Assembly (NCBI RefSeq): GCF_002001005.1
Contig: NZ_MUNX01000075.1
Coordinates: 1-64,000, forward strand
DNA length: 64,000 nt
Reading direction: 5' to 3'
Source of the DNA: Flavobacterium sp. A45
Lineage (GTDB): Bacteria > Bacteroidota > Bacteroidia > Flavobacteriales > Flavobacteriaceae
This document shows, piece after piece, positions 8,644 to 45,883 of this stretch (position 1 is the stretch's first letter; the number at the start of each line of letters is the position of its first letter). Below the pieces are notes generated by a model. That model did not search any database. It was not told the origin of the DNA and saw only the letters and a program-made list of their open reading frames with translations. The translations under genes were made by a program, and so were the position numbers.

Positions 8644-9642
8644 TTAAAGCGATAGAAATCCTGCCTTGACAATTAGTTTCTGTCCTTCCTTTGACAAAAG
8701 GAAATCACAAAATTTCTTAGTATCTCCTTGTGGATTATTATTTGTAATGGCATTCAATGTTCGATGAATAAAATAAGTTCCATTCGCAATTGTTTCTTTT
8801 GTAGCTTCTATTCCATCAAAAGAAACGCTTTTGACTGCTATATTTTTAGCTTTATAATTATTCAAAATCTGAAGTGGAAAATATGTAATTGCACCGGGAG
8901 TTTTAAGTAAAACAGCCAAAGCCATATCATCTGTTTCGGGAGCGGTAACCACGTTTTCATACCAGGCTTCTTTGTTTTTGTCACGATAGATGAGTCCTCC
9001 TTCAACTGGTTTGGATTCGAGTTTCATAAAATCACAAAAAAGCATAATTGAATCATACGATTTGCTTCTTCCAATTAATACAATAGGTAAATCAGGTCCT
9101 CCTAGCTCTTTCCAATTGACAATTGCTCCTGTCCAAATGGCTTGGATTTGTCCAAAAGTAAGATTTGTAACTGGCAAAGAAGGCGAAACAGCTATTGCTA
9201 ATCCGTCTAAACCTATGGGGGTTCCTACGAGATTGGGACATTTCAATTTTTCGTAATCTTTTATATTTCGTGTGGTAATGGCCACGGCAGCTTTATTGGA
9301 CATTACCAATTCAACCATATCACCTGTCGCACCTGTTGTTTGAGCAATTTCAAAACCTTTTCTTGAACTTTCGAAAGCAGGTTCAGCGAGTTTCATTAAC
9401 CCCTTTACGGTACTTGCAGCAGCCACTTTCAAGGTGTCATTCTCTCTGTCATTTTGCTTGTTAAGGAAAATACTTGCATCAATATTTTCTTTTACATTAT
9501 AAACAATAACATAAGATTTACTTTCATCTGTTTTTATCGTTTTAGCAACTGCTTCGAGCGAACAAAAATGAATTAAAAGCACTGTAGAAACTAACATTTT
9601 GTACAATGCAACAGGGTGATTATTATGGTTGATTTTCTTCAT
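8644..9642 (-). CDS. PstS-like phosphate-type periplasmic binding protein
   Basis: This is a secreted substrate-binding protein of the PBP-like/PstS superfamily. After the signal it shows LKVAAASTVKGLMKLAEPAF, AQTTGATGDMVELVMSNKAAVAITTR, then NLTFGQIQAIWTGAIVNWKELGG. The last phrase is a strong signature of phosphate-binding proteins (IFxGxIxxWxxxGG). No PstC, PstA or PstB transporter genes lie nearby. It sits inside the glycan operon, 22 bases upstream of nothing but sugar genes. It may bind phosphate or an anionic glycan product, or act as a sensor. The N-terminal ~70 residues before the binding fold are unusual for PstS. The fold is confident, the ligand unknown. Confidence 0.75.
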   Translation of the reverse strand: MKKINHNNHPVALYKMLVSTVLLIHFCSLEAVAKTIKTDESKSYVIVYNVKENIDASIFLNKQNDRENDTLKVAAASTVKGLMKLAEPAFESSRKGFEIAQTTGATGDMVELVMSNKAAVAITTRNIKDYEKLKCPNLVGTPIGLDGLAIAVSPSLPVTNLTFGQIQAIWTGAIVNWKELGGPDLPIVLIGRSKSYDSIMLFCDFMKLESKPVEGGLIYRDKNKEAWYENVVTAPETDDMALAVLLKTPGAITYFPLQILNNYKAKNIAVKSVSFDGIEATKETIANGTYFIHRTLNAITNNNPQGDTKKFCDFLLSKEGQKLIVKAGFLSL

Positions 9643-12010: not shown

Positions 12011-14533
12011 TTAATTCAAAAATTTTACGATTTCCATCGGAATCACTTTTCCGTTTGGAACACTCAATTGTCCTTCGCAAATATTGTTCTCTTCAATAAG
12101 ATCTTTACTTTTGGATACCTCAACTTTGACAGTAACCTTAAATTTTCCAACGGCTGCTGTCCAGTCCGTTGCATTGGAAGCTTGGGCACAAACTTGCTCC
12201 ATACCACCAACAGTTATACCAATCGATTTAGAATAATAGTGAGCAACTTCTTTTCCGTCAACATAAAATCGAACGATATGATCCTCCCCTTTTTTGGTTT
12301 CTCCAGTTCCGTTATTTATTAGTGATGCCATAAATACAACTGGTTCTCCCACTTTAGGAAAAACTGGCATTGTCCGAATATTGGTGACTTGCAAATCGGG
12401 TTCAGGACTTGCAGTAACTAACTTGAATGAAGCTTTTAGTGGTAATTTATCCGATGCTCCCCCAACTTGAACAAAATACTCTCCTGCTGGAACTTGGTAA
12501 GCACTAATTTGTTCGTTGTAAATATAAAATTCCTCCGGGGTCAGCTTGAATGTAATTCGTTTTGACTCTCCTGATTTCAATAGCGTTTTTTGAAAACCAC
12601 GCAACTGTTTTGCTGGCATAGCTAATGCTGGACTAATATTTCCTGTTGAAAGATAGAGCTGCGCCACTTCTTCTCCATCTGTTTTTCCTGTATTCTTTAA
12701 ATCAAAAGAGACTTCAATCATCTCACCAACTTTGGCTTTTGATTTATTGATTTTAATATTGGAATACTCAAAAGTGGTGTAACTGATTCCCGCTCCAAAT
12801 ACAAATTCAGGAGTCAATTTTTGACTGTCAAACCAGCGATATCCTACACCTTTGGATACCAAATTTTTAAAATCGGTACTGATAGGAATAATTTGACTAT
12901 CGTCTTTTGGAATCGTAGCTGGCAATTTTCCTGAAGGATTGTAATTTCCAAATAAAACATCGGCAATAGCCCGGCCTCCCTCTTGCCCTGGATAAAAGGC
13001 ATACAACAATCCTTTTACATTTTTAAGTACGGGAGTAACACTGCAAGTCCCTCCGGAAACCACCACCAAAATGATATTTGGATTCACTTTTGCAATTTCA
13101 TTAATTAATTCATTTTGCATTCCAGGTAACAATACAGTTTGAGATGGTCTGTCGGGACGGCTCAAAACACCTCCACCGTTTTCATCAGCTTCTTTATTAA
13201 TAAAATAACCTTCACCTTCAACGGTACTATCCAATCCAGCTACAAACACCACATATTCCGATTTTTTGGCAGCTTCTATGGCTTCGCCAAATTGTGCTTT
13301 ATTATTATCATTGATATTACAGCCCTTGGCATACAAAACTTTGTCATCTCCAAGAATTGTCTTGATTCCTTTTTCCACTGAAATCTGATACGAAGGAATT
13401 ACCTTGGAACTGCTATTTCCGTCCAATGGCAGCACTGACGCATTTGGACCAATAAGTGCAATTGATTTAACCTTTTGTTTGTTTAAAGGCAAAAAGGCAT
13501 TTTCATTTTTTAGAAGTACCAATCCTTTAAGTCCGCTTTCATAAACCAATTCTCTATGTTCTTTACTGTCAATAACAGATTGGGGTACTACAGGAACACC
13601 GTCCATCATTCCTGAAATGATTTTTGTTCTCAATACGTTCCGTACGGCACGATCCACGAGACTAATATCATAAATTCCGTTTTTAACACCTTCAGGAAGT
13701 TCTTTGATATATAAATCGTTTCCTTCGCAAAAATCGAGTTCTGCATTGAGAGCTTTACCCGTTTCTTTAAATCCTCCCCAATCACTCATCGTATAATAAT
13801 CGAATCCCCAGAGATCTCTTAAAAGCGTTTTGATCATGTATTTATTTTCAGCGCATTTGTCACCGTTAACCCAATTATAAGCACACATTATTGACATAGC
13901 TCCACCAAACTGTATGGATCTTTTCCAGTGCAAACCCCAAAACTCTACTAAGCTCCTTTGATCACTTAAATAATCATTGGTACGGCGATTGATTTCATAG
14001 GTATTTAAATTATAATGCTTTACAGATCCAAAAACAGAAGTCGTATTTTGACCTAATATAAAAGCTGCCGAAATTCTGCCTCCAAGGAAAGGATCCTCTC
14101 CTATAGTTTCGGGAGCACGGCCAATTCTTGGGTCTATCAACATATCCAGTGTAGGTCCCGCAATCCTGTCTTTACCGCGTGCAGCTTGTTCTTCACTAAT
14201 GGCTCTTCCCACTTTGGTAATCAAATTGGGGTCCCAAGTGGCGGCCATAGCAATAGTAACCGGAAAAGAAGAATACCCTTTGGCATTATTCCCTATTCCG
14301 TGAGGCCCGTCACTTCCTGTAAACTGCGGTATTTTTAATCGCTTATTACCATCTGTCAAGTAATACAATTGTTCAATTTTCTCTTGGGTACTCATTTTCG
14401 CAATCAAGTCATCCAGTCTTTTTTCCAGCGGACTGATGCTTTCAACAGTTTGTGAAAATGAGTTATTAGTTATCAATATCCCTGCAAAAACAACTAATCT
14501 GAAAATCCGATATGAGTTAGATTTTTTTTCCAT
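12011..14533 (-). CDS. GH3 glycosidase with C-terminal CARDB domain
   Basis: The third GH3 enzyme (840 aa) has an N-terminal signal followed by the catalytic barrel with MSDWGGFKETG near residue 248, the alpha/beta sandwich, and a fibronectin-III-like domain. About 110 extra C-terminal residues (from about 720: PDLQVTNIRTMPVFPKVGEP to the end) have the look of a CARDB adhesion-type beta-sandwich, with its spacing of V..GE.V.F.A...N.G. The extra domain may hold the enzyme to cell-wall or glycan material. The gene follows the permease by 13 bases. Confidence 0.85.
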   Translation of the reverse strand: MEKKSNSYRIFRLVVFAGILITNNSFSQTVESISPLEKRLDDLIAKMSTQEKIEQLYYLTDGNKRLKIPQFTGSDGPHGIGNNAKGYSSFPVTIAMAATWDPNLITKVGRAISEEQAARGKDRIAGPTLDMLIDPRIGRAPETIGEDPFLGGRISAAFILGQNTTSVFGSVKHYNLNTYEINRRTNDYLSDQRSLVEFWGLHWKRSIQFGGAMSIMCAYNWVNGDKCAENKYMIKTLLRDLWGFDYYTMSDWGGFKETGKALNAELDFCEGNDLYIKELPEGVKNGIYDISLVDRAVRNVLRTKIISGMMDGVPVVPQSVIDSKEHRELVYESGLKGLVLLKNENAFLPLNKQKVKSIALIGPNASVLPLDGNSSSKVIPSYQISVEKGIKTILGDDKVLYAKGCNINDNNKAQFGEAIEAAKKSEYVVFVAGLDSTVEGEGYFINKEADENGGGVLSRPDRPSQTVLLPGMQNELINEIAKVNPNIILVVVSGGTCSVTPVLKNVKGLLYAFYPGQEGGRAIADVLFGNYNPSGKLPATIPKDDSQIIPISTDFKNLVSKGVGYRWFDSQKLTPEFVFGAGISYTTFEYSNIKINKSKAKVGEMIEVSFDLKNTGKTDGEEVAQLYLSTGNISPALAMPAKQLRGFQKTLLKSGESKRITFKLTPEEFYIYNEQISAYQVPAGEYFVQVGGASDKLPLKASFKLVTASPEPDLQVTNIRTMPVFPKVGEPVVFMASLINNGTGETKKGEDHIVRFYVDGKEVAHYYSKSIGITVGGMEQVCAQASNATDWTAAVGKFKVTVKVEVSKSKDLIEENNICEGQLSVPNGKVIPMEIVKFLN

Positions 14534-14546
14534 TCTTGACCAATTA

Positions 14547-15866
14547 TTAAATAGTTACTTTTGGCATTTTTGGAACTAAAAGACTGAATACAGTCCAAGC
14601 TACCAAATAAGCCAGAGCACAAATTATAAACATGATGTAATATCCTGTTTCGATTTTTCCAAGCACTGAATAGTGATCCAATATCAATCCAGCAACTTTT
14701 GCAATGATAACACCTCCAATGGCTCCAATCATTCCGCCAATTCCAACTACTGAGGCAACTGCTTTTTTGGGAAACATATCGGATACGGTTGTAAAAATAT
14801 TGGCCGACCATGCTTGGTGAGCCGATGCTGCCAGACCTATAATGATTACTGCATACCAATAATTGAATGTACCCAGCCATTGAGCCACAATCATAGGCAA
14901 AGCGCAAATTGCAAAAAGCAGCAATGCTCTTCTGCGCGCTTTATACAATGGCCAACCACATTGAATAAAATATCCTGAAAGCCAGCCACCGCCTATACTT
15001 CCAAACATCGCCATAGTATAAACTACGGCTATAGGAAATGCCAAATCCAATTTGGTCATTCCGTATTGTTTGTTTAAAAATGATGGCAGCCAAAACAAAA
15101 GAAACCACCAAACGGGATCACTAAAAAACTTCAATGAAGCAAATGCCCAAGTTTGTCTATATCCCAACAATTTAATCCAAGGAATTTTTTCAGATTTTTC
15201 CTCAGTTATAATCTCGTCAATATCATCTGAATGAATATAATCGTACTCTTCTTTTGATATTTTTTTATGCTTTTGAGGACTTTCATAAAATAGCCACCAA
15301 AAGATTAACCAAACCAACCCTATCAAACCTGTAATGATAAAAGCATACTGCCATCCCCAAATACCCGCAATTAAAGGCACTGTCAAAGGAGCCAAAATCG
15401 CTCCAATATTAGTACCTGAATTAAAAATTCCTGCAGCCAAGGCACGCTCTTTTTTAGGAAACCATTCAGCAACTGTTTTAATTGCTGCCGGAAAATTACC
15501 CGATTCACTGAATCCCAGTACTCCTCTTGCCATCATAAATCCAAAAGTAGAACCTGCAAACGCATGGCCTATTGAGGCAATACTCCAAACAGTTAACGAA
15601 AGTGCATATCCTAATTTTGTTCCTATCTTGTCAATAATAAAACCTGCTCCAACCATTCCCATTGCATAGGTCACTTGAAAGGCAATGACTATATTAGCAT
15701 AGTCCGTTTCATCCCAACCAAATAATGGTGCCAGATAATCATCCTTCAGTAAACTGATCACTTGGCGATCCAGGTAATTTATTGTAGTTGCAAAAAATAC
15801 TAAAGACAATATAGTCCATCTGTACTTTTTCCCTTTGAAAGCATCATTTTCATTTTTTAAATCCAT
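14547..15866 (-). CDS. MFS permease, ACS (anion:cation symporter) / hexuronate transporter type
   Basis: This is a 12-helix major facilitator of 439 aa. TTINYLDRQVIS in helix 1 and RGVLGFSESGNFPAAIKTVAEWFPKKERALA are signatures of the ExuT/ACS family, which imports hexuronates, galactonate and similar acids. A large hydrophilic loop (about residues 200-235) separates the halves. In an operon that may produce keto-sugars or aldonic acids in the periplasm, this is the inner-membrane importer of the product. It lies 78 bases downstream of the oxidoreductase gene. Confidence 0.88.
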   Translation of the reverse strand: MDLKNENDAFKGKKYRWTILSLVFFATTINYLDRQVISLLKDDYLAPLFGWDETDYANIVIAFQVTYAMGMVGAGFIIDKIGTKLGYALSLTVWSIASIGHAFAGSTFGFMMARGVLGFSESGNFPAAIKTVAEWFPKKERALAAGIFNSGTNIGAILAPLTVPLIAGIWGWQYAFIITGLIGLVWLIFWWLFYESPQKHKKISKEEYDYIHSDDIDEIITEEKSEKIPWIKLLGYRQTWAFASLKFFSDPVWWFLLFWLPSFLNKQYGMTKLDLAFPIAVVYTMAMFGSIGGGWLSGYFIQCGWPLYKARRRALLLFAICALPMIVAQWLGTFNYWYAVIIIGLAASAHQAWSANIFTTVSDMFPKKAVASVVGIGGMIGAIGGVIIAKVAGLILDHYSVLGKIETGYYIMFIICALAYLVAWTVFSLLVPKMPKVTI

Positions 15867-15944
15867 TATATTGTATTTTTTTTATTGTGTTATGACATTC
15901 CTATCAACTAAAATCTCTGTAGTTCTTTGCTGTAGTATTCTCAA

Positions 15945-17126
15945 TTAAATAGTAAAAACCTTAATTGGTATTTCTGTTCCATTTTGTTCCGCTGAGACAT
16001 AAGCTGTGTAAATAGCAACAATAACATCGGATGCTAATTCACTATTACTTTCTATTGGATCTCCAAATACCAATGACCGATAAAATGCATCCATTTCGTG
16101 TTGATATCCATTAAACCATGCTTCATCGGGTGATATAAAGGACCAGCCTTGTTTTGTCCCGGTCTTCTCAACAACATATATATCATTGAAATTTTCATCA
16201 ACTGGATTATAAGTCATCATAGCATTGTTAGGTCCAATATTGCAAAGCGTCCTATGATTGTTGGCATGCACTTCTACGAAGTTTTTCACACCACCATGGA
16301 GCAACTCGCTAGCTACAATATCAGCTATTGTTCCATCCTCAAAAACCAAATGAATCGAAGCATAATCCTCTACATCAGTATACGTATCTCTTAAATGACC
16401 TTCGTTTTTATAGCTTTCCATTCTGGTAATGGCATGAGTTCTTGCCGATATACTTTTAGGACGTATTGGTTTTCCATTTCTGGCTCGTCCTTCAACATGC
16501 TTTAAGTAAATAGATGCAGTTAATGGATGACTGCCTTTACCCATTAATGAGCCTCCGCCGGAAAGATGCCATTTCCCATAATCCTTAGAATGTGACCCTG
16601 AATGTGATTGTTGCGCTTGTATCCAAAGAATTTGCGCCCCAGTTTTTTGAATAATTTCACGTTCTTTTTGAATAGCGGGAGCATAAACCCAATTTTCAGC
16701 ATAGAGAATCGAACCTTCACTTTCTTGCTCCGCTTTTAGCATTCGCTGAATACTTTCCATAGCTAACTTTAAACCCTTTTCCCTTGAAAAAGTACCACCA
16801 TTAAATGCTGCTGAACCATCCCCAAAATAACCTGTAAATGGTTTTTCTACAATAACATATTTACCGCGTATTAATACTGCTATTACCAGATGTTCATGTG
16901 TAGATGGCGGTGTGCATACATGCAGCATATCCGAAGCATCAATTAACTCTTCTAGAGTGTCAAAACTTTTTATGTTTCTCGGAGATGTAAATTCGAGTGA
17001 TGAATTTGTAGAAAACGCTCCAACAACTTCAACCTTAGTACTGTATATTCGTTTGATTGCTTCATAGTGAAAACTTGCGGCAAAACCAGAACCAATAATC
17101 CCTGCGCGTACAACTTTTTCTTTCAT
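15945..17126 (-). CDS. Gfo/Idh/MocA family NAD(P)-dependent oxidoreductase
   Basis: The N-terminal Rossmann fold (VRAGIIGSGFAASFHYEAI) and the family EKP motif (VIVEKPFTGYFGDG) are clear. They are followed by the Gfo/Idh/MocA C-terminal alpha/beta domain (SGGGSLMGKGSHPL). There is no signal peptide, so the enzyme should be cytoplasmic. Members oxidise or reduce sugars at C2 or C3, and they interconvert 3-keto-glucosides in the pathway that also uses DUF1080 proteins. An insert around residues 95-120 (GDGSAAFNGGTFSREKG) is unusual for the family. The gene is 7 bases downstream of the GH5 gene. Confidence 0.85.
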   Translation of the reverse strand: MKEKVVRAGIIGSGFAASFHYEAIKRIYSTKVEVVGAFSTNSSLEFTSPRNIKSFDTLEELIDASDMLHVCTPPSTHEHLVIAVLIRGKYVIVEKPFTGYFGDGSAAFNGGTFSREKGLKLAMESIQRMLKAEQESEGSILYAENWVYAPAIQKEREIIQKTGAQILWIQAQQSHSGSHSKDYGKWHLSGGGSLMGKGSHPLTASIYLKHVEGRARNGKPIRPKSISARTHAITRMESYKNEGHLRDTYTDVEDYASIHLVFEDGTIADIVASELLHGGVKNFVEVHANNHRTLCNIGPNNAMMTYNPVDENFNDIYVVEKTGTKQGWSFISPDEAWFNGYQHEMDAFYRSLVFGDPIESNSELASDVIVAIYTAYVSAEQNGTEIPIKVFTI

Positions 17127-17133
17127 TTTTATG

Positions 17134-18165
17134 CTATTTTTTCAGTGGTATTAAAGCATTAAGTATTTCTGTTTTCCAATCGTCTTTATCCATATCATAA
17201 AGGATAAAATCGGAATCAAACTGCCAATAGCTCCAACTCCATTTTCTAGATTCTGCCTGTCTGGCAATATAATTTGTCCATCGAATGCGGGAAGCCATAT
17301 CCGCTTTTTCATAAGCTCCAAATTCACCAAGCGTAAGCGGTCTATTATAAAGTTTTGACCAATCTTGCGCAATATCAAAATCAAGGTTAACGGCTTCTTC
17401 TTCGCTTTTGGACTGAGTCCACTCAATACCGCTTAAATCCTTATTCTTTTTGGACCATGGCGCACCTTGATGTGTAAATTGAATCGGGCTGTAATAATGA
17501 ATAGCCACGATAATATTTCTATCCTTTTCTGGTAAGCTTAGGTCTTTTAAATGCTTTATCTGATTGCCATTAATTGTCCCTATAACTATTGTTCTCTTAG
17601 GATTGGATTCTCTTAAAATCTGATAGGCTTCCTTATGAATTTCATTCCATATTTCAGGTTTCATATTGGGTTCATTGCATATTTCAAACAACACATCATT
17701 AGAATATCCCTTACAATGATTCGCTATTTGTTTCCACATTGACAACAACTTAGCTTTATTCCCCAAAGGATTTTTCTCCATGGCACCATGCTCATGAAAA
17801 TCGACAATTACCATCAGCTTATTCTTTAATGATTCCTTAATTGCGTAATCCAATGTGATAAAGAAACTAGGATTAATTTCATAAGTAGAATCATTCATAG
17901 AAAATTTGAAAGGACTCATAACGAGTCTGACATTATTAAAACCTGCCTCTTTGATTAGTTTAAAATGCTTATCCTTCATTCTTGCTTTCGAAGCATCTTT
18001 CCAGATAGGATCATATCCTATAATATTTACACCTCGTCCCAATCGTTTATTTTGTTCAAATGCAAACCCCTTACCCCATTTATCTTGGGCTGACAAAATA
18101 GAAGAAGCAGTTAGAAAAAATAATGTAACAAGGATTATACTATTTCTTTTAAAATTGTTTTTCAT
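17134..18165 (-). CDS. Secreted GH5 glycosidase (cellulase family)
   Basis: A signal peptide (ending SSILSAQ) precedes a GH5 TIM barrel. GRGVNIIG marks the start of the barrel, VDFHEHG follows strand 4, the acid/base Glu lies in FEICNEPN and the nucleophile Glu in TLGEFGAY. The length of 343 aa is that of a single catalytic domain without binding module. GH5 covers endo- and exo-acting beta-glucanases and mannanases. With three GH3 enzymes downstream, an endo-glucanase supplying oligosaccharides is plausible. It follows the isomerase gene by 20 bases. Confidence 0.88.
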   Translation of the reverse strand: MKNNFKRNSIILVTLFFLTASSILSAQDKWGKGFAFEQNKRLGRGVNIIGYDPIWKDASKARMKDKHFKLIKEAGFNNVRLVMSPFKFSMNDSTYEINPSFFITLDYAIKESLKNKLMVIVDFHEHGAMEKNPLGNKAKLLSMWKQIANHCKGYSNDVLFEICNEPNMKPEIWNEIHKEAYQILRESNPKRTIVIGTINGNQIKHLKDLSLPEKDRNIIVAIHYYSPIQFTHQGAPWSKKNKDLSGIEWTQSKSEEEAVNLDFDIAQDWSKLYNRPLTLGEFGAYEKADMASRIRWTNYIARQAESRKWSWSYWQFDSDFILYDMDKDDWKTEILNALIPLKK

Positions 18166-18185
18166 TACTTTAAAATTTTAAAAGA

Positions 18186-19133
18186 CTATTTATAAACTTT
18201 ATCTCTAGCATCATTCAATTCTTTCATCAAAGCAGGTACAAGAGCGAAAGCATCATACGGAATATCTTTTAAAAGAATAGTTTCTATTGGAAAATAACCT
18301 TTAACTCCTGTTTTCTTAAAAATTCTCATCAACCTTTCAGAATCAGTTCTAATTGGACTTCCTATACCAAATGAACTTTCTTTAATCTGCCAGTTTACAG
18401 CGTAGGGAGCCGTAATTTCGATATCTAAATATGGATCTGCAGTTTTAAAATTTCCAGTATCAACAATTAAACCAGCCCATTTACTATCAACAGCTTTAAG
18501 AACTTTTAAACATTGATCTGCAGTTTGCAGCATATCCCCATGATTTTGGATACCAATCTTAACACCATGTTTTTCTCCTTCAACAGCACATTGCTTGTAT
18601 GCATCAATCATCCATCCAGCCACTTCATCCCATTTGTCTTCATATCCTTTAGGAATTTCACCAGCAAAGACTCTCAAAACTGGAGCACCTAATTTTTTGG
18701 CTACAATCACCCATTTTTTAGCCAGTTCAATATCGGCAGCTCTTACTGCTGGATCAGGAGAAGCAAAATTATTTCGAATTCCAGTTCCTGTTATAACAAT
18801 GCCTAACTCTTTTGCTTTATTACGAAGCTTCAAAATATATTCATCTGAAGGGACCGCAGGATATCCAGGAAAATAATATCCCGTTAAATCTATTCCTTTT
18901 ATATTCTGTGCTGCACACCAATCCATTAGATTAAATAATGAATACAAAGGCTGTTTGTCTTTAGCCTGTTTTGCCATCAACAAGTCATTGAAGGAATACG
19001 CATTTAATGTCACTATAACATCTTGTTGCTTTTTTGATTTCTTTTCATTTTGTGCAAAAGCGGAATTATTTGCTAGAGAAGATATTAACACAACGATAAT
19101 TGCAAGAAACCGTAAAAGGTTATTTTTTTTCAT
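18186..19133 (-). CDS. Secreted TIM-barrel sugar isomerase/epimerase family protein
   Basis: This is an AP-endonuclease-2/xylose-isomerase-like barrel (VTLNAYSFNDLLM, GIDLTGYYFPGYP, VLRVFAGEIPKGYEDKW, GVKIGIQNHGDM, GLIVDTGNF, YFPIETI). The metal ligands seem conserved (E, D, H, E). The ATG at 19133 starts a clear signal peptide (LLRFLAIIVVLISSLANNSAFAQ), so unlike most relatives it acts outside the cytoplasm. Periplasmic members of this family take part in 3-keto-glycoside breakdown in Bacteroides, alongside DUF1080 and Gfo/Idh/MocA proteins. It is the first gene of the operon. Confidence 0.82.
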   Translation of the reverse strand: MKKNNLLRFLAIIVVLISSLANNSAFAQNEKKSKKQQDVIVTLNAYSFNDLLMAKQAKDKQPLYSLFNLMDWCAAQNIKGIDLTGYYFPGYPAVPSDEYILKLRNKAKELGIVITGTGIRNNFASPDPAVRAADIELAKKWVIVAKKLGAPVLRVFAGEIPKGYEDKWDEVAGWMIDAYKQCAVEGEKHGVKIGIQNHGDMLQTADQCLKVLKAVDSKWAGLIVDTGNFKTADPYLDIEITAPYAVNWQIKESSFGIGSPIRTDSERLMRIFKKTGVKGYFPIETILLKDIPYDAFALVPALMKELNDARDKVYK

Positions 19134-19186
19134 GATTTTAAGTTTATGGGTTTGATAGTTTGTATTTAGATAGTCAAATGACTTTA

Positions 19187-19250
19187 GCAAATATTATCAT
19201 TACATCGCTAAAAGCAGTGTCTGATAATTTTTATTAAGGGGTGCGTTTGT
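19187..19250 (-). promoter_or_regulatory. Operator-promoter of the glycan operon (minus strand)
   Basis: In the minus-strand sense, the box ACAAACGCACCCCT (19250-19237) is followed 21 bases later by AATTATCAGACACT (19229-19216). Next comes a -7-like AATATTTG (19195-19188) ahead of the first gene. The first box matches the motif ACATnnnnACCCCT found at five promoters in the window. Spacing of two helical turns suits tandem AraC-type HTH binding. Assignment to the regulator at 25401-29543 is inferred. Confidence 0.65.
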
Positions 19251-19330
19251 ATTGTTCACAAAATTATTTACGAGAAAAAACAACAATTCGCTATTTACTT
19301 ATTTTTGAGCAAATCAATTTATAATTAGGA

Positions 19331-19392
19331 ACATTTAAACCCCTTAAAAAAAACGTATACTGCCATCTTGCTTTTAAAAATGAATAAATTTG
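19331..19392 (+). promoter_or_regulatory. Operator-promoter of the TonB-dependent receptor
   Basis: The box ACATTTAAACCCCT (19331-19344) is followed about 21 bases later by a weaker half (19352-19365). Then comes a perfect Bacteroidota -7 element TAAATTTG (19385-19392). No TTG -33 element lies at the proper distance, as expected for an activator-dependent promoter. The arrangement is matched at 23651-23713. Confidence 0.65.
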
Positions 19393-19492
19393 TTAGGTAG
19401 AAAAAAGTTTCATTAGTCTATTTTTATAAATACTATATTGCTTTAAAATAAATAAAACAGTCAAATCCATAAAAACAGCTCCAATCAAAAAA

Positions 19493-21580
19493 TTGTATAA
19501 AATATCATCTCGCTTTTTCGTTTATCATCTATACCTATTGTTTTGTCTTCCCATCTATGGTCAGGTAAAAAAAGATACTATTGGGCTTTCAGAACTGATT
19601 GTTAAAAGCTTACCCATTCAGAATACAATTCAAAATTCGGCAGCACCAGTTTCTATCATTACAGAGAAAGAAATCAAACAATCAGATGGAGTAATTCTTA
19701 CCCCAATTCTCAACAAAATTCCGGGTGTATATATGCAGCAAGGCTCCTTGAATACAAATAAAATAACCATTAGAGGCATTGGATCCAGATCACAATACAG
19801 CACTACTAGAATCAAAGCCTATTTTGAAGAAATTCCGCTTACTAGTGCCGAAGGTGAAACATCGTTAGAAGACATCGATTTGGAAGCTATCGGAGGTATT
19901 GAAATAATAAAAGGCCCTAATTCAACTGGCTTTGGAGCTGGACTTGGCGGTGTAATCAATCTGTTTTCAAATAAGACTCCAAATGAAAATTCTTTTGCAA
20001 AATCTGGAACCACCGTAGGAAGTTTTGAATTACTCAAACAGACATTGACCGCTGGATACAGTGATAAGAAATCAAACTTTTTTACCAATTACAGCGCACT
20101 ACAAAACAACGGTTACAGATCAAATAGTAGTTATGACCGGAAATCATTCAACTTGTTTAGAAAACAACATCTCTCTAAGAATGACATCCTTTCCCTTTTT
20201 GTAATCAATACCCAACTAAAAGCTTACATTCCTAGTTCTTTAAGTGAAATTGATTACAACAATTCTCCAGAAAAAGCTGCCACAACTTGGGAAGCAGCGC
20301 AAGGATTTGAATCATATGACAAATTATTAATTGGATTGGGATATCAACATCATTTTTCAAAAAACTGGTCGTTAAACACGAGTATTTCCACATCATTCAA
20401 AAACGGATATGAAGCTCGTCCTTTTGATATTTTAGAAGATAAAAGTGGTGCTTTTAGCTTTCGATCCAAAATTAACCATATGACTAATCTGTTTTCAATA
20501 CCTACCACTTTTAGCCTAGGAATAGAAACCATAACAGAAAATTATCATTTTTCTCTTTACAAAAATCTATATAAATCACAACCGGGCCAAGGAAGTATTC
20601 AGGGTGATCGTTTTAGTGAAGTTGAACAAAAAAGGAACAATTCAAATGTCTTTGTGCTAATGAATATGCAGCTTCTAGAAAAACTGTATTTAGAATCCGG
20701 CTTAGCTTACAACACCACAAATTATGAGCAAAGTGATGTTTTTGTTAAAAATAAAACCGATAAAAAGAGTTATACCTTCGGATCAATTTGGTCACCTCGA
20801 ATAGGGCTTTCCTATAAAATATCAAAAGGCAAAAACCTGTACACTTCAATTAGCAAAGGTTTTTCAACCCCTACTGTTGCAGAAACATTGACACCCGAAG
20901 GACAAATCAATACGGATTTAAAACCTGAGACAGGAATTAATTATGAGGTAGGCTTCAAAGGAAATTTTATAGACTCTAAACTTTACATAGAACTGGCATT
21001 TTATGACATGCTTATTCAAAATTTACTGGTTGCTCGCCGTATTGCCGAAGACCAGTATATGGGAATTAATGCTGGTGAAAGTTCGCATCGAGGCATAGAG
21101 TTTTTAGTGAATTATAAATGGATTCCAAATTTAAATTTCCAACTGCAGCCTTATTGTTCTGGTACAATAAATAATTTTAGGTTTACCGACTTTGTAGATA
21201 AAGATATTGACTTTTCAGGAAATAAACTTCCTGCAGTATCCAATATTCAATGGAATTTAGGCTTTGATTTCAGCACTAATTTTGGGTTGAACTTCAACAC
21301 AAATTTTGGCTTTTTTGGTAAAATGCCAATGGATGACGCCAATTCTAAATACACCAAAAGCTACCAATTATTGGATGCAAAAATTGCATACACTTTTATC
21401 ATCCTAAAAAAATTAAAAACAGAAATAAATTTGGGAATGCAAAACATCTTAAACGAAAAATATTCATCAAGTATACTACCTAATGCAGTTGGTTTTGGCA
21501 CTGCTCTTCCTCGCTATTATTATCCTGGAAATCCAAGTAATTTTTATGGTGGCATAACATTTACCTACCTTTTTAAATAA
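19493..21580 (+). CDS. TonB-dependent outer-membrane receptor
   Basis: This is a 695-aa receptor with a plug domain (ELIVKSLPIQNTIQNSAAPV, then DGVILTPILNKIPGVYMQQG and ITIRGIG), a 22-strand barrel and a terminal aromatic residue (TFTYLFK). It lacks the carboxypeptidase-regulatory domain of SusC proteins and is not paired with SusD, so it resembles small-ligand receptors. No ATG fits: the start is TTG at 19493, which precedes a signal peptide (FFVYHLYLLFCLPIYGQ), and the first in-frame ATG would remove the signal and half the plug. It faces a PQQ-type sugar dehydrogenase and a cytochrome across a shared terminator, so PQQ uptake is a reasonable idea (compare E. coli YncD/PqqU). A metal or sugar ligand cannot be excluded. 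Confidence 0.85.
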   Translation: MYKISSRFFVYHLYLLFCLPIYGQVKKDTIGLSELIVKSLPIQNTIQNSAAPVSIITEKEIKQSDGVILTPILNKIPGVYMQQGSLNTNKITIRGIGSRSQYSTTRIKAYFEEIPLTSAEGETSLEDIDLEAIGGIEIIKGPNSTGFGAGLGGVINLFSNKTPNENSFAKSGTTVGSFELLKQTLTAGYSDKKSNFFTNYSALQNNGYRSNSSYDRKSFNLFRKQHLSKNDILSLFVINTQLKAYIPSSLSEIDYNNSPEKAATTWEAAQGFESYDKLLIGLGYQHHFSKNWSLNTSISTSFKNGYEARPFDILEDKSGAFSFRSKINHMTNLFSIPTTFSLGIETITENYHFSLYKNLYKSQPGQGSIQGDRFSEVEQKRNNSNVFVLMNMQLLEKLYLESGLAYNTTNYEQSDVFVKNKTDKKSYTFGSIWSPRIGLSYKISKGKNLYTSISKGFSTPTVAETLTPEGQINTDLKPETGINYEVGFKGNFIDSKLYIELAFYDMLIQNLLVARRIAEDQYMGINAGESSHRGIEFLVNYKWIPNLNFQLQPYCSGTINNFRFTDFVDKDIDFSGNKLPAVSNIQWNLGFDFSTNFGLNFNTNFGFFGKMPMDDANSKYTKSYQLLDAKIAYTFIILKKLKTEINLGMQNILNEKYSSSILPNAVGFGTALPRYYYPGNPSNFYGGITFTYLFK

Positions 21581-21583
21581 ATA

Positions 21584-21634
21584 AAAACCGCAGTTATTAA
21601 ACTTTATTTTAAAAAGCTTAATAACTGCGGTTTT
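21584..21634. terminator. Bidirectional terminator
   Basis: A perfect 17-bp stem (21584-21600 and 21618-21634) has A-rich and T-rich flanks on both sides. It lies between convergent genes, the receptor (+) and the cytochrome c (-), and can serve both. Confidence 0.85.
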
Positions 21635-21690
21635 AGTTTTTTTTCAAAAAAAATATTTAATTTTTCTTAAAAAAATAATGCTGCTAATTA

Positions 21691-22155
21691 TTATTTAACA
21701 ACAGCTTTCACTTCTTCAACAGTTACTATTTTCTTTTGCTTGTTAGACCATGAATTCATAATGTAATTCATTACGTCTGCCACCTCCTGATTTTCTAGAC
21801 CCAATGCAGGCATTATATTATTAAATTTTTTGCCCTTAACAATAACTACACCCGTCTGTCCATATTTCACGGCATGTATACTTTCTTTTCGCTTCTTTGT
21901 TAGCCAATCTGAACCGTCAAGAGGTGGGAAATTAACCAAATCCCCTTTACCGGTTGCTAAATGACATTGCATACAGAAATCAGTATAAATGTCTTTTCCT
22001 CTGTTTATACTTGCTTGCAGATTTGATTTTTCCTGAAACTTTACTGGAATTAAATCAACATACTCTGCTTCTTTTAAAACAGAACCTGACAAACCCATAA
22101 ATGTTAAACCTATCAAAGCAGGACTAACTAGAGTATAAATTTTATTGAATATCAT
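21691..22155 (-). CDS. Periplasmic class I cytochrome c
   Basis: This is a 154-aa secreted monoheme protein with the haem-binding motif CMQCH at residues 61-65 and a likely axial Met in NNIMPAL. The C-terminal helix (VADVMNYIMNSW) is typical of class I cytochromes. It starts 4 bases after the sugar dehydrogenase gene and is certainly cotranscribed. The simplest role is electron acceptor for that dehydrogenase, passing electrons to the respiratory chain. Confidence 0.85.
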   Translation of the reverse strand: MIFNKIYTLVSPALIGLTFMGLSGSVLKEAEYVDLIPVKFQEKSNLQASINRGKDIYTDFCMQCHLATGKGDLVNFPPLDGSDWLTKKRKESIHAVKYGQTGVVIVKGKKFNNIMPALGLENQEVADVMNYIMNSWSNKQKKIVTVEEVKAVVK

Positions 22156-22159
22156 AAAC

Positions 22160-23278
22160 TTAATTTGGTATAATTTTAAAAATTCCTTTTTGTTCTACAG
22201 CAAAATAAATATAACCATCATGGCCTTGAATCACGTTTCTTACACGCCCAATATCTGTTGCAATTTTTTGTCTTTTAATCACTTTATTGTCTTTCAATTT
22301 CAACAGTTCCAAATATTTAAATTTCATTGCTCCCACAAGCAATTGTCCTTTCCAATCCGGGTAACGATCTCCTGTGACAAAAACCATTCCACCAGGAGCG
22401 ATAGACGGAACCCAATAATATAAAGGCTGTTCCATTCCTTCCTTTTCGGTTATATCACTTATGATTTTACCATCATAATTAATTCCGTAAGTAATTACAG
22501 GCCACCCATAATTAGCCCCCTTTTTAATAATATTAATTTCATCACCTCCTTGTGGTCCGTGTTCATGAGTCCAAATATCTCCAGTTATTGGATTTTTGGT
22601 CATCCCTTGAGGATTGCGGTGTCCATAAGAAAAAATAGCTTCTTTTGCTCCCGATTTCCCAACAAATGGATTGTCAGCTGGTATCTTACCATCATCATGT
22701 AATCGATAGACTTTCCCTCCATCACGATTTATATCTTGAGGGTTTTCGAATTTTTTATCTCTTTCTCCAATACTAAAATATACATATCCCTTATTATCAA
22801 AAGCTATTCGGGAACCAAAATGATTGGGACCGGTAGTATTTGGTGTTGCTTTGTATAATTCTTGAATTTCGGTCAACCCTTCATCTGCTAATTTTGCTCT
22901 AATTAGTTTGGTATTTGCTCCTTCACCTTCAGCTCCTTCAGACGAAAAAGTCATATATATCCACCTGTTTTTTTCATAATTGGGGTGCAAAGCAATGTCC
23001 AATAATCCACCTTGACCTCGTGTATACACTTTAGGCATATTTTTAACCTCAGTATTCACTCCATTTTTAACATGAAAAAGTTTGCCGCTTTTTTCGGTCA
23101 CCAATAAAGTGCCGTCTGGTAACATAACCATACCCCATGGAATGATTATACCAGTTGCAACAGGTTCGAAAGTATACTTGACAACCTCATTTTCGATAGG
23201 AATGTCATTTTCCTTGACTTGTGCTTTACCATTTGAAATAAAAAGTAAAAAGACTAAAAAAGAACTGATTTTATACAT
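22160..23278 (-). CDS. PQQ-dependent aldose sugar dehydrogenase (soluble GDH / YliI family)
   Basis: This is a secreted six-bladed propeller of 372 aa. Family phrases are IIPWGMVMLPDGTLLVTEKSG near the start, HFGSRIAFDNKGYVYFSIGERD, YGHRNPQG, and EHGPQGGDEIN, which includes the His and Arg/Gln region around the PQQ site. These enzymes oxidise the C1 of aldoses to lactones in the periplasm with PQQ as cofactor. No PQQ synthesis gene occurs in the window, so the cofactor must come from elsewhere on the chromosome or from outside. It is followed directly by its probable cytochrome partner. Confidence 0.85.
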   Translation of the reverse strand: MYKISSFLVFLLFISNGKAQVKENDIPIENEVVKYTFEPVATGIIIPWGMVMLPDGTLLVTEKSGKLFHVKNGVNTEVKNMPKVYTRGQGGLLDIALHPNYEKNRWIYMTFSSEGAEGEGANTKLIRAKLADEGLTEIQELYKATPNTTGPNHFGSRIAFDNKGYVYFSIGERDKKFENPQDINRDGGKVYRLHDDGKIPADNPFVGKSGAKEAIFSYGHRNPQGMTKNPITGDIWTHEHGPQGGDEINIIKKGANYGWPVITYGINYDGKIISDITEKEGMEQPLYYWVPSIAPGGMVFVTGDRYPDWKGQLLVGAMKFKYLELLKLKDNKVIKRQKIATDIGRVRNVIQGHDGYIYFAVEQKGIFKIIPN

Positions 23279-23514
23279 AAATTTTAATATTATTTGATTT
23301 AAACAATGTGTTAGCTCACTATTTTACACAACTGAATTTAGAACAGAGTCTGCTTAATTTTACTAACTATTTTAGAATATTATTCTCTATAATGACTCAA
23401 GAAATAACAACTTTATATCTTTAGATTAACCAAAGAATTTTCCAATGAAATATATGACAATATTTTAATTAATCCATTTGTAATAAAATAGTAAAATTTT
23501 AATTGCAAATATTA

Positions 23515-23568
23515 CTATAAATTCTTTTTAAATAGTGTTTGATAATTTTTATTTAGGGGTATATATGT
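23515..23568 (-). promoter_or_regulatory. Operator-promoter of the sugar dehydrogenase-cytochrome unit
   Basis: In the minus-strand sense, ACATATATACCCCT (23568-23555) is followed 21 bases later by AATTATCAAACACT (23547-23534). Next comes a -7-like AATATTTG (23523-23516). The two boxes are nearly identical to those at 19216-19250. The leader to the ATG at 23278 is long, about 230 bases. Confidence 0.65.
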
Positions 23569-23650
23569 ATTATTAGAAAAGTCAATTATTGAAAAATAAT
23601 AAGCTAAACCATTATGCATAAACAAGTAAATGTCTTTTTGTCGAATAGAA

Positions 23651-23713
23651 ACATTTCTACCCCTAAAAAAAAATTTACACCCCCGCTCTTCTTCTTAAAA
23701 CACAATAAATTTG
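23651..23713 (+). promoter_or_regulatory. Operator-promoter of the GlcG-like/aldo-keto reductase unit
   Basis: ACATTTCTACCCCT (23651-23664) is followed 21 bases later by AATTTACACCCCCG (23672-23685) and then by a perfect -7 element TAAATTTG (23706-23713), with no proper -33. The distance from box to -7 differs by only one base from the receptor promoter at 19331-19392. Confidence 0.65.
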
Positions 23714-23865
23714 GTAAGAGAAAGATTTTTCATTCTGATTTTATTTCAACTTATGTTAGAAGAATGATAATCAAAAAAACTCAGCAGCAAAAAATAACAA
23801 TTCGATGCTCATTTAGTCCGAAACCTATGTCTGATTTAAAAAATTAATTAACAATAAAAACAAAA

Positions 23866-24309
23866 ATGGAAAACAACGAAATGCTGAAAACTGTAAACAA
23901 AGTTTTCAGTTCAATTGAAAAACTAATTCCTTCCTATATAGAAATTCCCGAAGATAGGAACATCTCAAACGGAAATTTAGCAGTTTGCATAATTGATGAA
24001 AATCACAATGTTTATGGAAAAATGTTTGGAACTAATAATGCCAGATTAAGACAATCCTATAAAATAGCATGGACAAAAGCGAGCCAAGTATGGCTTACGG
24101 GAGTAAAAACAGGAGAATATGAAAGAATGGTTTTTACAAAAGAAGTAGATGAAAACGCAAATGGTATTGAAGCTCCAGACTTAATAGGCTGGGAAGGCGG
24201 ACAACCGCTCGTTCTGAAAAACGGTAAAAAAATATCGGTTGGATTTAGTGGTTTTAGAGGAACAACTGATCTCGAAATAATGGTAAAAGCACTAGCTTTG
24301 GCTGAATAA
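23866..24309 (+). CDS. GlcG/HbpS-like (DUF336) protein
   Basis: This is a 147-aa cytoplasmic protein with the GlcG/HbpS fold: GNLAVCIIDENHNVYGKMFG near the start, a helix with KIAWTKASQVW, and FSGFRGTTDLEIMVKAL at the end. HbpS members bind haem. Others are found next to glycolate or propanediol enzymes and may sense or handle small organic acids or aldehydes. It is followed 46 bases later by an aldo/keto reductase and shares the operator of the sugar dehydrogenase, which ties it to sugar oxidation. The exact role is unknown. Confidence 0.7.
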   Translation: MENNEMLKTVNKVFSSIEKLIPSYIEIPEDRNISNGNLAVCIIDENHNVYGKMFGTNNARLRQSYKIAWTKASQVWLTGVKTGEYERMVFTKEVDENANGIEAPDLIGWEGGQPLVLKNGKKISVGFSGFRGTTDLEIMVKALALAE

Positions 24310-24355: not shown

Positions 24356-25351
24356 ATGCAATACATAGCAAATCCAGAACGATATCAAAAAATGGAATAC
24401 CGCAGATGTGGTAACAGCGGATTAAAACTACCCGCACTATCCTTAGGTTTATGGCACAACTTCGGGCATATTGATTCCCTAGAAAATGCACGCAATATTT
24501 TACGAGCTGCTTTTGATAACGGCATTACTCATTTTGATCTTGCTAACAATTATGGCCCTCCTCCAGGATCCGCAGAAGAAAACTTTGGAAAATTATTCAA
24601 GGAAGATTTCATTCCTCACCGAGATGAATTGATTATATCAACCAAAGCTGGCTGGGGAATGTGGGATGGTCCTTATGGCGATTGGGGATCCAAAAAATAT
24701 TTGGTTGCTAGTCTTGATCAGAGCCTAAAAAGAATGGGCTTAGAATATGTAGATATTTTTTATCACCATCGCCCAGATCCTGAAACTCCATTAGAAGAGA
24801 CAATGACCACACTTGATTTGATGGTAAGACAAGGAAAAGCTCTTTATGTTGGCATTTCCAGTTATGAGCCTGAGGAAGCCGCAAAAGCTTTTGAAATATT
24901 AAAACAATTGGGTACTCCTTGCCTAATTCATCAGCCAAGATATTCTATGTTTGACCGTTGGGTCGAAAATGGATTATTGGATGTATTACAACAGCACCAA
25001 ATAGGATGTATCGCGTTTTCTCCGCTTGCGCAAGGGCTGTTAACCAATAAATATTTAAAAGGAATCCCAGAAGGATCAAGAGCTTCAAGCCATCGTGGTA
25101 ATGGTGCAATTGACGAGGAACAGGTTTCGGATGAAAAAATAAAAAAAGTGCTTCAATTAAATACAATTGCTGAAGAACGCGGACAGAACCTAGCCCAAAT
25201 GGCATTAGCATGGATTCTAAAAGATCAGCGAATTACTTCAGTTCTTTTAGGAGTAAGTAGACCAGAACAGCTTTTAGATTCTATCGATTGTCTCAAAAAT
25301 TATTCTTTTACAAACGAAGAATTAAACAGAATAAACCAAATTCTAAAATAA
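24356..25351 (+). CDS. Aldo/keto reductase, YghZ (L-glyceraldehyde 3-phosphate reductase) type
   Basis: This is a 331-aa NADPH-dependent TIM barrel. FDLANNYGPPPGSAEENFG contains the catalytic Asp and Tyr, ISTKAGWGMWDGPYG the Lys, and YHHRPDPETP the His; the cofactor-binding GVSRPEQL is near the C-terminus. The N-terminal phrase ERYQKMEYRRCGNSGLKLP is typical of the YghZ subgroup, which reduces L-glyceraldehyde 3-phosphate, methylglyoxal and related aldehydes. It is cotranscribed with the GlcG-like gene. In this setting it may detoxify aldehydes made during keto-sugar breakdown. Confidence 0.85.
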   Translation: MQYIANPERYQKMEYRRCGNSGLKLPALSLGLWHNFGHIDSLENARNILRAAFDNGITHFDLANNYGPPPGSAEENFGKLFKEDFIPHRDELIISTKAGWGMWDGPYGDWGSKKYLVASLDQSLKRMGLEYVDIFYHHRPDPETPLEETMTTLDLMVRQGKALYVGISSYEPEEAAKAFEILKQLGTPCLIHQPRYSMFDRWVENGLLDVLQQHQIGCIAFSPLAQGLLTNKYLKGIPEGSRASSHRGNGAIDEEQVSDEKIKKVLQLNTIAEERGQNLAQMALAWILKDQRITSVLLGVSRPEQLLDSIDCLKNYSFTNEELNRINQILK

Positions 25352-25400: not shown

Positions 25401-28400
25401 TTATTCTTTATCAGTTTGTGAACTCTTATAAACTGTTGGTGATGAATTATAGAGTTTTTTAAATTCTTTACTAAAATGTTTTCGATCATTAAAGCCAACC
25501 ATATACGTTATTTCAGATACTGGAAAACTCGAATGCAATAATAAACTCGCTGCTTTTTTCAATCTCATATTTTTAATAAAACCAGCAACCGATTGATTGG
25601 TGAGCGTTTGAACTTTTTTATACAAAACAGTTCTGCTCATTCCAATCTCTCTGACCAAATCATTCACATCAAAATTTGAGTTATCAATATTGTCATTAAT
25701 TATTTGAGTTAATTTTTTCAGAAAAATACCTTCTGGCGTTTCCATATTTTCAATTTCTGAACTATTACGGATAAACTTTTCACTGTATTTTTGCCTCATT
25801 ATTTCTTTAGCGGACAATAAGTTTATTATGTTTAGCTTTAATATTTCAATACTAAACGGTTTTGAAATATAAGAATCGGCTCCTGTAGAAAGCCCTTCAA
25901 TTCTATTTAGCGTAGATGATTTAGCGGTTAATAATATAACAGGAATATGATTTGTATTTTGGCTTGTTTTTAATATTTTACAAAATTCAAAGCCATCCAT
26001 TTCAGGCATCATAACATCGCTGATGATAAGATCCGGAATTTCTTTTTCCATAAATTCCAATGCATCAGTAGCATTTGTAAACTTTAAAATTCGATAATCT
26101 TCGCATAGAACATCAAAAACAAATGATAAAACCTCCTCATTATCATCTATAATAAGAAGTGTCTTTTTATCTTCTTCAATTGTATCTAAAACTTCTTCTG
26201 TAACCGGCACAATAATTTCAGTTTTTACATCAGAAATTGGATTTACAGAATCAGGGATAGCAATTTGGTTTTCAATTATCTGAGATTTTTTGAAATGATC
26301 CTTCCCTTTTTTCAAAGTAATTGTAAAAATTGTGGTAAAAGAAGCATCAGCTTCTGTTTGTACATTAAGTTCTCCATGGTGCAGCTCTACAATGCTTTTA
26401 CTCAATGCTAAGCCTATTCCACTGCCCAAATTGGCACTGCCGCGATCATCTAACTGGAAAAAATTCTTAAATATTTTCTTTTTCCTGTTTTCGGGTATTC
26501 CAATACCATTATCTTTCACTTTGATTTGTATTGTGTCTGCATCCATGCCCTTTTGTTCTACTGCCAATGTTATTCTTCCATTTTTACTGGTGAATTTAAA
26601 AGCATTGGAAAGCAGGTTATAAATCACTTTTTCCATCTGGTTTTTATCAAAATAAACCTGTATGGAATTAATATTCAGAACAAATTTGTAATCAATTTTT
26701 TTCTCGACTGCGATACCTCGAAACGATTCATAAATATCGAAACAAAAAGGCACAATATCCTGCTGTTCACAATAGATTTTCATACTGCCTTTTTCAGCTT
26801 TTCTAAAATCCATCAGCTCATTAACCAATTTTAATAATCGATCCGAGTTACTTTTTATAATCTTCAATTTACTTTCCAGGTTGCTGTTCTTTTCTGCATG
26901 ATTGAGCAATTCTTCAACTGGTCCGCTGATCAGAGTGAGTGGTGTTCGTATTTCGTGCGATACATTCGTAAAAAAATCCAATTTCATTTTATACAGCTCC
27001 TGTTGTCTTTCTTTTTCTACTTGCTCGAAAAACAAGGCTCTTTTTAAATTTTCTCTATTTCGCATGAAACGAAAAAACAATACCGAAGAGCATATTAGCA
27101 AAGAGGCGTAGAAGAAATACGCCCACCAAGTTCTCCACCAGGGAGGAAGCACCGTAATTTTCAAAGTTTTAATTGAGGGATTCCATAAACCATCTTCATT
27201 AGATGTTTTTATACTCAAAACATAACTTCCCGATTGAAGATCCATTAAGCTAATATTATGCTGGTTTCCAATGTCATGCCAGTCATCTTTACTAAACATA
27301 CTTTCCAACTTATAAGAGTACCTGTTGTTTTCTGTATTTACAAAGTTTAAAGCACTAAATTCAATTCCCACATAAGTCTGCCAATAATTTAAAGTAATTT
27401 CGGAAGTTTCCGAGATACAATTCTCCAACGGGACGTTTTTATTACCTGGAATGATTACTTCATTATTAACAATAAGCTTTGTCAATACTATCTCACTTTC
27501 ATTTTGTGTTTTTACAACATTCAAAGGGTTAAAAATTGTCAGCCCTTTTGATGAACCAAATACGAGCTGATTCTCATTTAATTTTAGATCGCAATTATTT
27601 GAAAATTGCTTTACTTTCAAACCATCTTTAGAAGAAAAAGTAGTTATTTCTAAATCAGAACTTTTAAAAGGAGGATTAAATGTTTTTATTTTTATTCTAA
27701 AAAGCAGATCATTGGCAGTTACCCAAAGATTACCAGCAGCATCTTCGGTTATACTTTTTATGGTTTCATCCGTAAACCCCAAAGCTTTATTAATTACATA
27801 AAATTTACTGGTTTTTTCATCAAAATAATTGAGCCCGTCATAATCTGCACCTATCCAAAGTCTCTTCTTTGAATCGGTATACAAGACTGTCAAACTATTA
27901 TTTGCAATAGAATTTGGTCCATTTGTTCTGTATACTTTTAAAACTTTTTTTGATTTCTTGTCAAATAAATCTAATCCATCTTGCGTAGCGACCCACAAAA
28001 AACTATTTCTGTCTTCAATATCCATAATAAAATTATCGCTGATTGAACTTACAGAACCATTATCCAAATAATTTTCAACAATACCATTCTGTTCTATTCG
28101 TTTAAGCCCGCTTCCATTAGTTGCCACCCAAACGGCTCCATTATCTACTAACAAAGAGTTTATTGGTCTTTCTCCCGTTTTGGAATCCTTTGCCGACAAT
28201 GGTATGTTACGAAATAATTTACTCTTCTTATTGAACTCATATAAGCCATTAAAGGTACCGCAAAGCAAAACATCCTGATTTTTATTAGCTAAAGAAGTAA
28301 TCATATTGGTTGTTTTTTCCGAATCAATTGGATCAATTAAATACGAAGCACTTTTATTCGTTTTGAAATCCAGAAAATTCAAACCTCCACCATAAGTTCC

Positions 28401-34785: not shown

Positions 34786-34902
34786 TTTTTCTAATTTTAA
34801 TAAATTAAAGGGTAAGCGCATCGACTTACCCCATAACTGCTTAACTTAATCTAACCTTACTTTATACACAAATAATTAATGGAATTACGATAAATCCCTT
34901 TC

Positions 34903-36459: not shown

Positions 36460-36479
36460 TTTTATTTTATTTAGTATGA

Positions 36480-37877: not shown

Positions 37878-37897
37878 GTTTATCGTTTTATAAATGA

Positions 37898-39589: not shown

Positions 39590-39610
39590 GTTTATATCTT
39601 TAATGGTTAA

Positions 39611-42715: not shown

Positions 42716-42727
42716 AATTTTTTGGTT

Positions 42728-45653: not shown

Positions 45654-45842
45654 TGTACATGTATTAAAAACTTGTTGCTAAGATATTCGCAAAAAAAACA
45701 ACTTATTTTTAATGATGTTACAATTTAATTCCTCAATAATTATTGGTTTCGCATTTTAAAAACAAAGCCTTTATTATCAAGGGTTTACGGGAATTAAAAC
45801 TTATTTACGAAAACCTTGTAGTTTCGATTCTGTTACATAAGG

Positions 45843-45878
45843 TTCAAAATTGATACCTAAAATAGTATCAATTTTGAA
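45843..45878 (-). terminator. Hairpin between hybrid regulator and fructan operon
   Basis: A perfect 14-bp stem (TTCAAAATTGATAC and complement) has an 8-base loop and lies 6 bases beyond the regulator stop codon. There is no T-run, so it could terminate weakly or be an operator. The fructan operon promoter must lie in the remaining ~190 bases up to 45653, but I see no clear -7 box there. Confidence 0.5.
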
Positions 45879-45883
45879 TCTAA

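Follow-up and report, generated by a model that had tools for sequence, protein, structure and literature searches.

We analysed a stretch of 64,000 nucleotides from the draft genome of Flavobacterium sp. A45 (the window: positions 1-64000 of one contig, in an assembly of 4.35 Mb and 158 contigs with a completeness score of 100%), focusing on a TonB-dependent receptor encoded beside a cytochrome c and a dehydrogenase of the GSDH family. Our favoured explanation, to which we give a probability of roughly two in three, is that these genes form a cofactor-scavenging and sugar-oxidation module, in which a receptor related to the Escherichia coli importer PqqU, with a changed binding pocket, supplies pyrroloquinoline quinone (PQQ) or a form of PQQ. 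The observations behind it are homology, the failure to find PqqC or PqqE, the recurrent linkage of these genes, mutual exclusion with PqqU-like receptors, and repeated operator-like elements. The link between the module and PQQ is one that we infer, and binding and import of PQQ by the receptor are predicted from sequence. The core of the locus is as follows.

19493..21580, + strand: TonB-dependent receptor, PqqU-related; 695 amino acids, TTG start, Plug and TonB barrel domains
21586..21632, no strand: hairpin terminator separating the receptor from cytochrome c; 36-nucleotide arms, T-runs flanking both sides
21691..22155, - strand: cytochrome c; 154 amino acids, CMQCH haem motif, N-terminus that looks export-type by eye
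22160..23278, - strand: predicted PQQ-type aldose/glucose dehydrogenase (GSDH, PF07995); 372 amino acids, RNPQG and EHGP motifs

The receptor, its partner genes and PQQ synthesis

Among solved structures the receptor is closest to E. coli PqqU, also named YncD (9c4o, E 1e-38; 6v81, 2.6e-38); the next relative, CntO, follows at 9e-11, so that the lead of PqqU is about 90 bits (136 vs 44). The best NCBIfam model is also PqqU (189 bits vs 128 for the next). Residues 28-694 of the receptor align to residues 29-706 of PqqU at about 24% identity. When E. coli PqqU is the query, the receptor is the top match in the genome (4.7e-39), and the second match (8.5e-11) is confined to residues 29-188. The likeness to PqqU therefore comprises full-length homology, a reciprocal best hit and, as detailed below, an aromatic residue at position 99. 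The receptor also shares its family and its phylum with the YncD-like receptors of other Bacteroidota. A preliminary description of this locus had asked whether it might instead group with known metal or vitamin receptors; in the NCBIfam and solved-structure searches it is nearest to PqqU, not to metal or vitamin receptors, and far from haem and siderophore receptors. A structure prediction built from eight sequences was discarded (mean pLDDT 39).

The same description had classed the receptor as a non-SusC protein encoded next to a PQQ-type aldose dehydrogenase and a cytochrome c, with a common terminator, and all of this holds. Like the SusC/RagA receptors, the protein is TonB-dependent and adjoins a glycan operon. 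Unlike them, it is only 695 amino acids long, scores 35.6 bits on the SusC/RagA model TIGR04056 against a cut-off of 368, and has no adjoining SusD-like open reading frame (ORF) in the ORF list, read by eye. The hairpin at 21586-21632 lies between the convergent receptor and cytochrome c genes, and the cytochrome c carries its CMQCH motif.

The GSDH matches PF07995 at 438 bits, and its closest solved chains are 2g8s (E 1.6e-81) and 7cdy (3.1e-81). It has the RNPQG and EHGP motifs of 2g8s, 7cdy and 3a9g, which we take to be sites serving PQQ and Ca binding. On the strength of the domain and these motifs, the enzyme is a predicted PQQ-type aldose dehydrogenase. It keeps the motifs of the soluble PQQ aldose dehydrogenase type represented by 2g8s and 7cdy (PF07995) and differs from that type in its partner genes. 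The genome encodes three GSDH-domain proteins in all; the other two (one of 1341 amino acids, one of 455 amino acids with an apparent sorting tail) both have RNPW and not RNPQG. No PF13360 quinoprotein was found in the genome.

The preliminary description had also seen no genes for PQQ synthesis. For PqqC this stands: no match was found in the draft genome (158 contigs) or in 78 of the 132 other receptor-bearing genomes (0/79), and the positive control, pSymB, was recovered at 5.3e-129. For PqqE, the best match in the genome reaches 68 bits, far below the cut-off of 381 (control, 610 bits), and matches at such a weak level occur in all 14 named control genomes. Judged by these two proteins (the search did not extend to PqqA, B, D and F), the genome seems to lack the ability to make PQQ. 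The PqqU survey likewise reports that its 206 Bacteroidota PqqU genomes have no PQQ synthesis (PMC12124388).

Under the proposed scheme, external PQQ, whether free, metal-bound or as a close derivative, would reach the periplasm through the PqqU-related receptor. There a periplasmic GSDH would bind it with Ca2+ and oxidise aldoses, handing electrons to the cytochrome c encoded beside it, from which they would flow to a terminal oxidase. Operator-like elements held in common with the glycan operon would raise PQQ import and sugar oxidation during glycan degradation. Ligand, electron path and regulator are the parts of this scheme that we infer.

Linkage and co-occurrence among relatives

Gene order was compared in 133 loci fetched from the same bacterial family (own locus excluded), with about 7 kb on each side of the receptor. 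A GSDH-family gene lies directly downstream on the same strand in 40 of them (median gap 24 bases), followed by a cytochrome c gene in 34 of the 40, and 36 of these 40 enzymes have both NPQG and HGP. In 17 further loci the GSDH-family gene immediately precedes the receptor on its own strand, and in two it adjoins the receptor on the other strand; 61/133 loci have such a gene within about 7 kb. In three loci (L105, L173, L174) a classical GSDH is encoded upstream of the receptor. A classical GSDH occurs within 3 kb in 42/133 family loci, or 58/155 rows once the window clade is added; by our estimate, given genomes of a few Mb with 1-6 GSDH genes each, chance would place such a neighbour in well under 1% of loci.

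Within the window clade, the GSDH gene converges on the receptor in 16/22 loci (window included), 15 of them with cytochrome c. The tree places the window type, the co-directional type and a third context, described below, in different groups.

The upstream GSDH-like proteins were domain-scanned in two loci, L081 and L046, which belong to clades other than that of the window. Both proteins (L081 5394-6668; L046 5409-6704) are divergent, with weak PF07995 matches, and also match PF23500. In L046 a small ORF parts the gene from the receptor, and this locus is hence outside the 17.

Co-occurrence was counted in 299 genomes of the bacterial family (receptor, E 1e-60; GSDH, E 1e-25; YncD-like receptor, E 1e-50), in counts that ignore kinship and genome size. 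Members of the receptor family were found in 133 genomes, as a single match in all except two (G115, G144). GSDH is encoded in 132/133 receptor genomes vs 123/166 others (Fisher 1.9e-11). YncD-like receptors, assigned by similarity alone (E 1e-50), occur in 29/299 genomes, many of them small, and never together with a window-type receptor (0/299; 12.9 expected, p 1e-8). Across the phylum they were found in 32/395 genomes at E 1e-60. Either receptor is present in 159/255 genomes with GSDH vs 3/44 without it. Three YncD-like matches (G043, G052, G264), all from genomes below 2 Mb, each have one in-frame stop, reflecting decay or assembly error.

The binding pocket and the alternatives

Several points weigh against the supply of PQQ by this receptor, among them the limits just given for the co-occurrence counts and for the YncD-like assignments. 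The receptor scores well below the cut-off of the PqqU equivalog NF041535 (189 vs 1200 bits). A separate, third context without any GSDH-family gene within about 7 kb accounts for 47/133 loci; there, a prolyl-tRNA-synthetase-like gene is found in 39 and an endo/exonuclease-phosphatase gene in 45. Six of the 22 window-clade loci, including F. fluvii, have no GSDH in the fetched stretch, which in one case is a 6.8 kb contig. Neither receptor is present in 96/255 GSDH genomes. In addition, a classical GSDH is absent from the 1.5 kb around each of the 12 canonical PqqU genes fetched, so linkage to GSDH is not a general PqqU trait.

The pocket, too, counts on this side. The published PqqU signature consists of an aromatic residue (Y99), R304 and R365 (PMC12124388). 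We verified the numbering on the E. coli protein and compiled the homologous sites in 155 rows, 133 from the family loci and 22 from the window clade (window included). The comparison with PqqU binding residues that the preliminary description had called for went against a canonical importer: in the window receptor Y99 alone is kept, with R304 replaced by K, R365 by F and R536 by Q. Q84 is replaced by N and, in the better alignment, K274 by E. By the published signature, the receptor is not a PqqU.

The same holds across the family. Site 99 is aromatic in 155/155 rows; site 365 is R in 0/155, and the full signature is present in 0/155. Site 536 is R in 7/155 and site 274 is E in 148/155. In 49/155 rows, the window not among them, an R is found five columns or fewer from site 365, so misalignment is possible in some. 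Site 304 is K or R in 22/22 window-clade rows and 31/40 co-directional rows, and L or I in 47/47 rows of the third context. E273, E307 and R309 are near invariant across the three main groups, with R309 at 87% in the third context. Canonical Bacteroidota PqqU proteins have the aromatic 99, R304, R365 and R536 in 12/12 cases; these 12 were chosen from elsewhere in the phylum by their likeness to YncD, so the match tests the alignment more than the biology.

In the window receptor, E273 falls at the K274 site, R309 beside the Q308/Q310 contacts, and R515/R516 close to the loop of R536. The arginine of an RPF motif occupies the Q310 column in the small alignment but not in the large one, and its position is unsure. 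Metal co-binding has been proposed for the K274 site in the PqqU survey (PMC12124388). The pocket departs from that of PqqU in a set way and may still accept PQQ. Positive charge at site 303 tracks GSDH linkage in the raw test (Fisher 3e-11); the trend is not borne out by independent pairs, and we do not claim this covariation. As a separate observation, the sister group of the receptor (L102 7001-9067 and 46 same-context loci) has no GSDH nearby, with L at 304 and W at 365 each in 46/47, and has possibly changed its ligand.

The alternative that survives best, although we consider it unlikely, is that the receptor imports some other small molecule on which GSDH and cytochrome c depend, such as an aldonic acid or lactone product, or a haem or metal chelate, and resembles PqqU by ancestry only. 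The loss of R365 and R536 and the change at R304 would fit such a receptor, as would the clade-C relatives, which are unlinked to GSDH and mostly have L at 304 and W at 365. It is countered by the reciprocal best hit with PqqU and the distance from haem and siderophore receptors, by the mutual exclusion with YncD-like receptors, and by the need of the GSDH family for a cofactor whose synthesis this genome seems to lack.

Substrate uptake had been put forward at the outset as a competing explanation, the glycan operon having no SusC of its own; the receptor would then take up oligosaccharides for that operon. Its divergent orientation from the operon, with repeated operator-like elements, is in keeping with this. 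However, the flanks within the window clade mostly differ (among its 22 loci, the glycan operon is common only to the window and one relative at 91%), and most window-clade relatives keep the receptor, cytochrome c and GSDH amid these other flanks. Few genes of the glycan operon were matched (E 1e-5) within about 7 kb on either side of the receptor in the 133 family loci: GH3 in four, the MFS transporter of the operon in one, and its GH5, GFO/IDH and TIM barrel genes in 0/133. The SusC model also remains far under its cut-off. Since dozens of genomes show the linkage amid flanks of other kinds, it is no by-product of the glycan operon, and we regard glycan uptake as improbable and do not favour it.

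Least probable of all is that receptor and GSDH lie together through inherited synteny and that their linkage has no functional meaning. This view could draw on divIC and the uridine-kinase-like and mutase genes that follow the operon in clade A (gene clusters in 36 loci, domains from one locus) and on the canonical PqqU without GSDH linkage, but the order varies between convergent (window clade), co-directional (clade A) and upstream (L105, L173, L174), and adjacency to a classical GSDH has changed at least 13 times on the tree.

A PQQ-scavenging module therefore remains the best reading, as first proposed, with the correction that its receptor fails the PqqU signature. The receptor differs from PqqU at R304, R365, R536 and, in the better alignment, K274, and in being linked to GSDH and cytochrome c. 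Selected passages and term searches of the main text of the PqqU survey yielded no mention of such a link (PMC12124388). The survey counted 206 Bacteroidota with the residue signature, described PQQ import by PqqU, Bacteroidota members included, and suggested own synthesis or diffusion as the PQQ source of Bacteroidota without PqqU (PMC12124388). Neither this operon nor a class of importers lacking the signature was found described in the open-access literature, judged by titles and the starts of abstracts.

More tentatively, and with somewhat less than even odds, the receptors could represent a second class of PQQ importers that is widespread in the bacterial family and replaces PqqU, with a different pocket, marked by E273, R309 and R515/R516, that perhaps takes PQQ as a metal complex. 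With the full signature in none of the 155 rows, such a class would escape the published signature. If PQQ scavenging by these receptors is true, a large sugar-oxidising group (133/299 family genomes) would obtain its cofactor by a route not covered by the signature, and PQQ exchange among bacteria would be commoner than counted so far. The receptor pocket would be a second way of binding PQQ, and in this genome cofactor import would be tied to glycan breakdown.

Operator-like repeats and neighbouring loci

The following features flank the module.

12011..19190, - strand: near part of the glycan operon, context only, sharing the divergent operator region; GH3, MFS, GFO/IDH/MocA, GH5, TIM barrel
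19222..19241, + strand: putative operator copy between the divergent glycan operon and receptor; repeat of TGATAATTTTTATTWAGGGG
19331..19352, + strand: opposed operator-like element upstream of the receptor; repeat of ACATTTNNACCCCTNAAAAAAA
23540..23559, + strand: putative operator copy upstream of GSDH; repeat of TGATAATTTTTATTWAGGGG
23651..23672, + strand: opposed operator-like element upstream of the HbpS-like/aldo/keto reductase unit; repeat of ACATTTNNACCCCTNAAAAAAA
23866..24309, + strand: HbpS-like protein in the GSDH-side operator region; 24.7 bits, slightly below the Pfam cut-off of 25
24356..25351, + strand: aldo/keto reductase, L-glyceraldehyde 3-phosphate reductase-like, context; 331 amino acids
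25401..29543, - strand: hybrid two-component sensor/regulator, candidate regulator from its position; Reg_prop, HisKA, HATPase, receiver and AraC helix-turn-helix domains

The common operators of the preliminary description were recovered, more firmly for one element than for the other. TGATAATTTTTATTWAGGGG occurs without mismatch at 19222 and 23540 and once more with three mismatches (3 copies vs 0.14 expected; 3 reached in 0/100 shuffles). The opposed element ACATTTNNACCCCTNAAAAAAA occurs at 19331 and 23651, with a third copy at 23547 that has two mismatches, and is statistically weaker (3 vs 0.18 expected; 3 reached in one shuffle). The repeats fall in two divergent regions, 19140-19500 and 23270-23880, so that four units could be under common control: the glycan operon, the receptor, GSDH with cytochrome c, and the HbpS-like/aldo/keto reductase unit. 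The hybrid two-component protein at 25401-29543 is a candidate to act on the module, given its neighbouring position. None of 22 related loci showed the elements at comparable strength, so the case for regulation comes from this genome alone. Among the loci compared, only this genome and its closest relative show the glycan link.

Further into the glycan operon, positions 193-1569 encode two 3-keto-disaccharide hydrolase domains (PF06439), which together with the GFO/IDH/MocA oxidoreductase suggest a 3-keto-sugar route. At 8644-9642 the operon encodes a solute-binding protein (PF12849), presumably of the phosphate type, with no transporter partners visible. A second carbohydrate locus at 33868-48622 was assigned mostly by eye, with Pfam confirmation of 45884-48622 only. 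It resembles a fructan-type cluster, in which SusC- and SusD-like ORFs are accompanied by GH32-like enzymes, a sugar kinase and a hybrid regulator of the periplasmic-binding-protein type.

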